DNA of 64,000 nt from Bacillus sp. SM2101 (lineage in GTDB: Bacteria > Bacillota > Bacilli > Bacillales > SM2101), in assembly GCF_018588585.1 (NCBI RefSeq), contig NZ_JAEUFG010000017.1, positions 1-64,000 on the forward strand, given 5' to 3'. Shown one piece after another: positions 52,099 to 57,039 of this stretch. A program made the position numbers and the translations under genes. A model generated the notes under the pieces. That model was given only the letters and a program-made list of their open reading frames with translations. It ran no database searches and had not been told where the DNA came from. Each line of letters opens with the position of its first letter. Position 1 is the stretch's first letter.

Positions 52099-52349
52099 CA
52101 TCAATTTTGGAGTAGGTTAATGAATTAAAGTTTGTTGCATTTATGAGAAAATTAGAGTACTAAATTTATCATCTACACCTTAAGGGCAGTATAAATGATC
52201 GGGATAAGCTTCGACTAAAATATTTTATTAAAATTTCATTGGGTTCCAATAATATATTTAAGGACTATAATGAATTTAATAGCTTGATAAGCAAATACAA
52301 ACAGCTTTATTTCTTCCAATTAATGTATAATAAGTTGGAGGAGTGATAA

Positions 52350-52895
52350 ATGTTGATAGTTAAGATGACAAGAAAGGAATTTGACACGTTAGCTCATGAG
52401 GAGCTTTGTAAAGTATGCTTTGAACCTTTGATCATAGCCTATAAAAATAGTATGGTTGAGCAAACTTTACAAAGCATGTCCGCTTTTAAAGAGCAATTTT
52501 ATGAACAGCTAACTACTGGGCAACAAGCTTTATTCGTATTTCATATGTTTTATGATCATGCAAGAAAATCCGTAGTAGAGTTGTATTGGTGGAGTTCATA
52601 TTTTTATGCCCAACCGAAAAATTGGTCATCAATAAAAGCTAGTGTTCATCACTTTCAGGATATCGATATGTTCAAGTTACTTGAAGAGATCGAAAGCGTT
52701 TTGCTACAACATCAATACCCTAGTAGTTTAGAAGATTATCATATTACACGAGAAGACTTAGCTAATAATAAAGAACTTATTACTAGGTTTAATCGTTTTC
52801 ATCTTCAGTTTATCGAGAACACTTCTAAGACGATTAAGCTTATAAGTAAGGGTATTCGAGGATGTCCAACTGAGTTTGTATTCATTGAGGAATAA
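52350..52895 (+). CDS. Hypothetical protein, 181 residues
   Basis: A soluble, mostly helical protein rich in aromatic residues (VVELYWWSSYFYAQPKNWSS near 75-95) with the ends EDYHITREDL and FIENTSKTIKLISKGIR. I do not recognise a domain. GGAGGAGTG precedes the ATG well and a terminator follows, so it is a real single-gene unit. Confidence 0.7.
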   Translation: MLIVKMTRKEFDTLAHEELCKVCFEPLIIAYKNSMVEQTLQSMSAFKEQFYEQLTTGQQALFVFHMFYDHARKSVVELYWWSSYFYAQPKNWSSIKASVHHFQDIDMFKLLEEIESVLLQHQYPSSLEDYHITREDLANNKELITRFNRFHLQFIENTSKTIKLISKGIRGCPTEFVFIEE

Positions 52896-55351: not shown

Positions 55352-55515
55352 GTTCGCTGTATGCGTATAGAATGAATTTTTCGTACGAAAAAATAAACAC
55401 GTATACTACTAGGTTTAGGGGCATCTTTTCTTCAATAAAACGATGACTGTTGAGTAAAACGACTTTCTAATCTTCAATTTAAGGAACTATAGCAACAAAG
55501 TTTACGAAAAGAGTC
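55352..55515 (+). repeat. MITE-like dispersed element, copy C
   Basis: CGCTGTATGCGTATAGAATG at the left, GGGGCATCTTTTCTTC in the middle, and AGCAACAAAGTTTACGAAAAGAG at the right; same orientation as copies A and B. It starts directly after the methyltransferase stop codon. Confidence 0.65.
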
Positions 55516-55571: not shown

Positions 55572-55600
55572 TTGAATGCTAAATTTTAATCTTCTATACT
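55572..55600 (+). promoter_or_regulatory. Sigma-A promoter for the leader-MFS transcript
   Basis: TTGAAT at 55572-55577, 17 bases, TATACT at 55595-55600; the expected start near 55607 gives a 190-nt leader. Confidence 0.65.
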
Positions 55601-55650
55601 ATATGTTAGCATCGGGAAGTGTTTAAAGCTATATAGAAAGGATGACGTCA

Positions 55651-55677
55651 ATGGGGTATGAATTTATTTTTATATGA
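55651..55677 (+). CDS. Eight-codon leader peptide candidate
   Basis: ATG at 55651 opens MGYEFIFI and stops at TGA (55675-55677). AGAAAGGATG lies 6 bases upstream as an SD. The hydrophobic F-I-F-I end recalls the stalling segment of ErmC-type leaders (I-F-V-I), though this likeness in eight residues is weak. It precedes a hairpin that masks the SD of the MFS gene, which is the context expected for ribosome-stalling control. Confidence 0.5.
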   Translation: MGYEFIFI

Positions 55678-55688
55678 ATTAAATGAGT

Positions 55689-55785
55689 TTGAACATCTGC
55701 TCGTAACTTATTAATTGGTTGCTACCCAAGAGCTCCTTCAATTTTTGCTTGACGAAAGTATAAGTTTGCAAAAAAGTTGAAGGAG
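55689..55785 (+). promoter_or_regulatory. SD-sequestering attenuator-like RNA structure
   Basis: CTCCTTCAATTTTTGC (55733-55748) pairs with GCAAAAA and TTGAAGGAG (ending 55785), separated by a two-base bulge, burying the ribosome binding site of the exporter. TTGAACATCTGCTC (55689-55702) can instead pair with GAGCTCCTTCAA, which would free that site. Mutually exclusive pairings after a leader ORF are the hallmark of translational attenuators. Folding energies were not computed. Confidence 0.6.
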
Positions 55786-55796
55786 TGTTAACTGAA

Positions 55797-56927
55797 ATGA
55801 AAGAAAAGAATTTCCGCATCCTATTATATTCATTTGTTTTATCAAGTGTAGCGGTCGCTATGTATCAGGGAGTTTATAAAAATTACTTATTAGATCATTT
55901 GTCCTTTTCTCCGACTCAATATGGTTGGGTTGATGGAATGAAGGAGCTGCCTGGATTATTTGCAGTTGGAATTGTCCTTATTGCATCACGGTTTACCCCA
56001 AAAGCTGTGTGGATTTGCTCTCTAATTGTGATTGCAGCAGGGTTAGTTTTATATACTGTCTCTGACAATTTGTTATTCATTATTATTTTCACTTTAATTT
56101 ATAGTACTGGGACACATTTAAGGGGGATACAAGGAGATTATTTAGTAACTGATTTTTCTACAGAACGGGATCGTTCCTATAAATTTGGACTAATTGCAAG
56201 TTATAATGCAGTAGCAAGTTTATTAGGAATGGGTTTAGTGTGGGGAATTAGTACGGTATCTTCATTTGAAACAATCTTTATTATAAGCAGTATTTTCGCA
56301 TTGATTAGCACAATTGCAGGGGTGAAGATCGTGCGAGCTAAAAGTTACTCTTCTCCCACAGTGAAATTAGTTTTTAAAAGGGCGTATACTCCTTATTATT
56401 TGTTGACTATCTTGTCTGCGACAAGGGAAATGTTTTTTATTACTTTTGGGACATTACTCTTGGTTGAAACATTTAATACTTCTGTACAATTAATGGCACT
56501 ACTTATGGCTGCTCACAGTATATGCGCCATTATTACGCGTCCATTAGTTGGTAAGGCAATACAGCGATGGGGTGAAGGAAGAGCACTTGCGGTTAATTAT
56601 ATCCTAGTTACGTTTGTATTCGTAGGGTATGCTTTGTTCGATTATGTCTATCTTATTTATTTTCTTTTTATCATTGATGATGTGTTAGTTGGTTTTGACG
56701 ATATCGGTATTTCATCTTTCGTAGGACGTCTTGTTCCCAGAGATGAATTAAGTGCGACGTTAGCAATGGGTAGTACAATAGCGCACGTTGTCGCAGTTTG
56801 TATCCCAATTCTAGGGGCAGTAGTTTGGACAATGTTTGGATCTATGATTATTTTTCTGATTGGTGCGATTGTAACGATTATAGCAGCGCTGTTTTCATTC
56901 AAGTTGACAAACTTTAAACCAATTTAA
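55797..56927 (+). CDS. MFS exporter under attenuator-like leader
   Basis: A 376-residue protein with about 12 membrane segments from the ATG at 55797, whose AAGGAGTG ribosome binding site lies within a stem. The N-terminus (NFRILLYSFVLSSVAVAMYQGVYK) and the mid-loop RDRSYKFGLIASYNAVAS fit drug/metabolite MFS exporters; no sub-family is certain. The leader ORF at 55651 and SD-masking hairpin suggest inducible expression, possibly by a ribosome-targeting compound that the pump exports. That link is an inference. Confidence 0.82.
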   Translation: MKEKNFRILLYSFVLSSVAVAMYQGVYKNYLLDHLSFSPTQYGWVDGMKELPGLFAVGIVLIASRFTPKAVWICSLIVIAAGLVLYTVSDNLLFIIIFTLIYSTGTHLRGIQGDYLVTDFSTERDRSYKFGLIASYNAVASLLGMGLVWGISTVSSFETIFIISSIFALISTIAGVKIVRAKSYSSPTVKLVFKRAYTPYYLLTILSATREMFFITFGTLLLVETFNTSVQLMALLMAAHSICAIITRPLVGKAIQRWGEGRALAVNYILVTFVFVGYALFDYVYLIYFLFIIDDVLVGFDDIGISSFVGRLVPRDELSATLAMGSTIAHVVAVCIPILGAVVWTMFGSMIIFLIGAIVTIIAALFSFKLTNFKPI

Positions 56928-56954
56928 CATTGTTTAGTTGTTATAAAAAAATGA

Positions 56955-56985
56955 GGCTATTTGAAAAGATCAATTTCAAATAGCC
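56955..56985. terminator. Bidirectional terminator
   Basis: GGCTATTTGAAA pairs exactly with TTTCAAATAGCC around seven bases; the minus strand then reads TCATTTTTTTATAAC. It lies between convergent genes. Confidence 0.85.
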
Positions 56986-57039
56986 CTCCTTATGTTCTAA
57001 TAAAAGCATGCTATATTATTATCTTAGTTTTACAAGTTG

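Follow-up and report, generated by a model that had tools for sequence, protein, structure and literature searches.

The locus raises the question of how translation of an exporter gene is released when its Shine-Dalgarno (SD) sequence is buried in a strong hairpin, and whether the leader that carries this hairpin is an attenuator operated by ribosomes on a short upstream ORF.

A rare exporter gene and its leader ORF

The gene (55797–56927, plus strand) lies in a 64-kb stretch of DNA, the whole of which is referred to here as the window, and encodes an MFS-family membrane exporter of 376 aa. The protein belongs to the MFS according to Pfam MFS_1 (PF07690; E=3.5e-26, 92.4 bits with a cut-off of 33.4), while all NCBIfam subfamily models gave scores below their cut-offs and only general MFS models were matched; no solved structures related to it by sequence were found. 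The start position is common to the homologues with 97% and 55% identity. Of the 397 genomes of the order, two carried the gene, namely its own and that of one congener, and no homologue was found in 216 genomes of a 5–7 Mb family of the class. A scan of genome contigs for homologues yielded nothing further than Paenactinomyces, and the plasmid-borne homologues are distant only (23–26% identity). Such a sporadic distribution is frequent among acquired resistance genes.

The preliminary description had placed a sigma-A promoter, a tiny SD-preceded ORF and a stem burying the exporter SD upstream of this gene, and all three were recovered. The sigma-A-like promoter TTGAAT-17-TATACT (55572–55600, plus strand; 9 of 12 matches) is weak by itself, since the scanned stretch contains 12 promoter-like matches including this one and shuffles contain 7.4; at the same site of the sister species the −10 element is the TATAAT consensus. 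The leader ORF (55651–55677, plus strand, from ATG to TGA, stop included) encodes in 8 codons the peptide MGYEFIFI and is preceded, with a spacer of 8 nt, by the Shine-Dalgarno AAAGGA (55637–55642, plus strand), which is identical in the sister. When a strict short leader ORF was defined by an ATG, an SD of at least 5 nt and a length of 4–20 codons, such ORFs were found in the own-genome sample upstream of 14 of the 217 genes preceded by a gap of at least 130 nt, and these 14 include the exporter gene, whose SD is masked most strongly.

Among 377 genomes of the order MGYEFIFI was found in the own genome and the sister only. It had also been stated earlier that no described leader with this peptide is known, and the literature search agrees, as neither MGYEFIFI nor MELSFH, the leader peptide of a Paenactinomyces homologue, was found in it. 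Two short matches to the leader in the own genome, one of them within trpE, were put down to chance and rejected as leader copies. The small ORFs nearer to the hairpin, MSLNICS, MNLFLYELNEFEHLLVTY and the TTG-started LVATQELLQFLLDESISLQKS, were likewise rejected as the leader, a good SD being absent in all of them; only LVATQELLQFLLDESISLQKS would extend to the hairpin arm.

The masking hairpin in the window and in relatives

The exporter SD AAGGAG (55780–55785) is located 11 nt upstream of the ATG at 55797 and is buried in the stem that was found on folding. The 5' arm of the hairpin, CTCCTTCAATTTTTGC (55733–55748, plus strand), begins 55 nt after the leader ORF end and pairs with the 3' arm (55769–55785, plus strand), which holds the SD: CTCCTTCAA (55733–55741) is paired with TTGAAGGAG (55777–55785), and the stem is continued by TTTTTGC (55742–55748) with GCAAAAA (55769–55775), resulting in a stem energy of −20.4 kcal/mol. 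The SD-opening energy, i.e., the free energy needed to unpair the SD within the 140 nt surrounding a start codon, was then compared with an own-genome background of 464 kb (20 stretches of 20 kb and the window), the hairpin backgrounds being samples of roughly 350–460 kb per genome and not whole genomes. With 12.7 kcal/mol the exporter ranks first among 314 SD-bearing genes (mean 2.7, sd 2.0, next 9.8 kcal/mol), and with the SD defined slightly differently it is first among 320 (next 11.2 kcal/mol). The exporter hairpin is beyond chance.

The seventh of the 314 genes in this ranking also lies in the window (52350–52895, plus strand; 7.9 kcal/mol, stem TTCTTCCAATT/AGTTGGAGGAG). The mini-ORF MNLIA, with an SD before it, is found 80 nt upstream of the start of this gene (52270–52349), the 181-aa product of which had no match in Pfam.

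The earlier proposal to compare the leader in relatives gave a divided result, as the ORF and stem are kept in the sister species and the layout in Paenactinomyces, but the peptide and the stem sequence differ in the latter. In the sister, a congener with 97% protein identity (L004), the leader ORF is unchanged and the stem is kept, with an SD-opening energy of 12.3 kcal/mol. Two of the changes in its hairpin fall in the upper part of the 5' arm and one in the loop, an A is inserted, and a G-to-A change in the 3' arm turns a U-G contact into U-A. Substitutions between the two species amount to 6 of 192 positions in the leader, 4 of 150 in the upstream intergenic DNA and 16 of 172 at fourfold sites; since the proteins are 97% identical and the leader diverges like intergenic DNA, this pair is too close for proof of constraint on the peptide. 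In the stretch from the methyltransferase gene to the exporter promoter, about 50–60 bp (55365–55425) could not be aligned with the sister, which has a shorter, different stretch at this site, while the version in the window carries the palindrome TTTTTCGTACGAAAAA.

The homologue of Paenactinomyces guangxiensis (L005/L007) has 55–56% protein identity, and its leader (L005) is not alignable by eye with that of the window. It contains the SD-preceded 6-codon ORF MELSFH (AAAAGGGTGATAAA-ATG GAA CTC TCT TTT CAT TGA), separated by about 43 nt from an 11-bp perfect stem, CTCCTCCTCA/TGAGGAGGAG, under which the exporter SD lies and which is unrelated in sequence to the stem in the window. The peptides MGYEFIFI and MELSFH are also unrelated, and no sequence common to both leaders was found apart from the SD and anti-SD. 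In the same 140-nt context the SD-opening energy is 18.5 kcal/mol, rank 1 of 305 in 400 kb of that genome, where the next in rank, an antisense ORF, lies on the same inverted repeat. As both hairpins rank first and their stems are unrelated in sequence, the masking hairpin is most likely a real, evolutionarily maintained trait in the closest members of the exporter family. A homologue with 37% identity (L006) ranks 12 of 328 in its genome and a clostridial one (L011) 14 of 264; in most other distant homologues a strong SD hairpin is absent and the leaders are ordinary. Upstream of the match in the clostridial sequence (minus strand) an SD, GGGGGAG, faces an upstream CTTCCCCC.

Ribosomes on the leader and opening of the hairpin

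A ribosome was simulated at each leader codon by leaving positions −15 to +16 of the P-site unpaired and recomputing the SD-opening cost, with equilibrium folding only. In the ermC control (L039, ermCL annotated) the cost dropped from 6.0 to 1.5 kcal/mol at codons 8–16, which include Ile9, the known stall codon of ErmCL, and in cat of pKH13 (L047) it dropped from 15.6 to 1.8 kcal/mol with the P-site at the later codons of the 6-codon leader. The third control, cmlA1 (L048), showed no drop, so that the simulation misses some known attenuators. With the ribosome at each codon of the leader ORF the cost stayed at about 11–13 kcal/mol in the window and the sister and at 14–16 kcal/mol in Paenactinomyces; opening of the hairpin in the window requires a P-site at about 55717–55753, downstream of the leader ORF.

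In ermC an SD-preceded short ORF is followed by a segment that can pair with the 5' arm and then by the masked gene start, and the same order had been reported for the window, where TTGAA..GCTC (55689–55702, plus strand) was proposed as antistem to GAGC..TTCAA (55730–55741). A ribosome stalled in MGYEFIFI would free the former segment for pairing with the latter and thereby release the SD. The elements do occur in this order and the two segments are complementary, and MGYEFIFI superficially resembles ErmCL, MGIFSIFVI, but the antistem duplex has −8.6 kcal/mol, a value that 30% of the shuffled upstream segments reach or surpass, against −20.4 kcal/mol of the masking stem. The respective values are −9.0 and −19.8 kcal/mol in the sister and −4.7 and −20.4 kcal/mol in Paenactinomyces, whereas in ermC the two pairings are balanced (−14.7 and −13.5 kcal/mol) and stalling opens the SD, which in the window stays closed. 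With the antistem at shuffle level and no codon lowering the cost, while the ermC control responds, such a switch was rejected as an equilibrium mechanism, and as an explanation of the leader it is quite unlikely. Of the claimed attenuator order, the short ORF, the masking hairpin and the MFS gene stand, with the layout repeated in Paenactinomyces, but the ermC-type switch is unsupported; having promoter, short ORF, complementary segment and masked SD in the correct order is thus insufficient, as the alternative helix here is no better than chance.

The staphylococcal cat leaders (pC194 type) are similar to the leader in the window in their very strong perfect SD stem, with an opening energy of 15.6 kcal/mol as compared with 12.7 kcal/mol. 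The cat leader ORF enters the 5' arm and the ribosome opens it, whereas MGYEFIFI ends 55 nt short and opens nothing. Since this distance is too large for a direct lift of the cat type, and the cat control responds, this mechanism was also rejected.

The lack of predicted ribosome coupling, together with the strength of the hairpin, would fit a non-ribosomal trigger, i.e., a small-molecule ligand, an RNA-binding protein or an sRNA which opens the hairpin. On the other hand, Rfam 15 families at the gathering threshold gave no match in the whole window, and the leaders of the window and Paenactinomyces share only SD and anti-SD, so neither an aptamer nor a protein site common to both is apparent; a trigger of this kind is considered unlikely.

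In both leaders the +1 frame relative to the short ORF is open through the hairpin save one TAA, which is directly followed by TTG in the window (55658–55780) and by GTG in Paenactinomyces (minus strand, about 2570–2692). This pattern is probably due to chance. Ribosomes leaving the short ORF could reach the 5' arm along this frame, and drug-caused frameshift, read-through or reinitiation could carry them there, so that the leader would act as a sensor of translation errors. Such a role is very improbable; if true, it would mean an exporter family whose hairpin is opened by ribosomes leaving the ORF and not by stalling.

Regulation of the exporter and known attenuators

The MFS efflux genes fexA and cmlA carry translation attenuators (PMC5418344, Table 1), and therefore SD-masking translational leaders of exporter genes are already known as a kind. 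In fexA and cmlA, as is predicted here, an MFS exporter stands behind a short leader ORF and control is exerted at exporter translation (PMC5418344). The exporter in the window differs from them in matching general MFS models only, the cmlA leader peptide MSTSKNADK is different from MGYEFIFI, and the leader ORF of the window is 55 nt away from the hairpin. No description of this exporter, of either leader peptide or of the spacing was found in the literature searched.

According to these data the region is probably a leader that represses translation of a rare exporter encoded on the chromosome, and probably an attenuator. Transcription from the promoter at 55572 would give an mRNA with a 5' leader, the terminal hairpin of which sequesters the SD of the MFS gene and would keep exporter translation low. 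The putative short ORF is probably translated from its own SD and probably serves as the sensor, so that the hairpin would open and the pump be made when a drug disturbs ribosomes on the leader, which would be translational attenuation in the broad sense. The opening would involve neither simple ermC-type 2:3 pairing nor a cat-type lift from MGYEFIFI, and would require a ribosome with its P-site in the interval named above, or a kinetic or trans-acting step. The broad reading, in which the leader restrains exporter translation and ribosomal events probably release it, has about an even chance of being correct.

The attenuator reading is favoured by the first rank of SD opening in the own genome and in Paenactinomyces and by the ranks of the 37% and clostridial homologues, as well as by the stem and ORF kept in the sister, the fexA/cmlA precedent and the sporadic occurrence of the gene. 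It is weakened by the fact that no leader codon opens the SD although the ermC and cat controls respond, by the antistem at chance level, by the unrelated peptides, by leader divergence like that of intergenic DNA, and by the lack of a strong SD hairpin in most distant homologues. The leader is attenuator-like in layout, while stall-coupled release, a defining feature of the classical systems, was not found in silico.

The same absence of predicted coupling between hairpin and leader ORF, the unrelated peptides and the exceptional hairpin in two genomes are also consistent with a static brake, where the hairpin holds the exporter constantly low or blocks translation of read-through transcripts and the short ORF is incidental, SD-preceded short ORFs being present upstream of 6–7% of long-leader genes by the criterion used here. 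Nevertheless, both relatives with the strong hairpin have an SD-preceded ATG ORF of 6–8 codons at a similar distance, for which the joint chance estimated from these 6–7% rates is about 0.5%, and the promoter with its own leader suggests regulated expression; a static brake is possible but rather doubtful.

Should the leader be an attenuator, an environmental Bacillales lineage and Paenactinomyces would have an uncharacterised exporter that probably acts on a ribosome-targeting compound, and the leader would offer a ready handle for finding the inducer.

Downstream of the exporter gene, a long terminator-like hairpin with a T-rich flank on the minus strand (56954–56986) separates the exporter gene from an LCM-type methyltransferase gene that is convergent with it, and may serve both of them.
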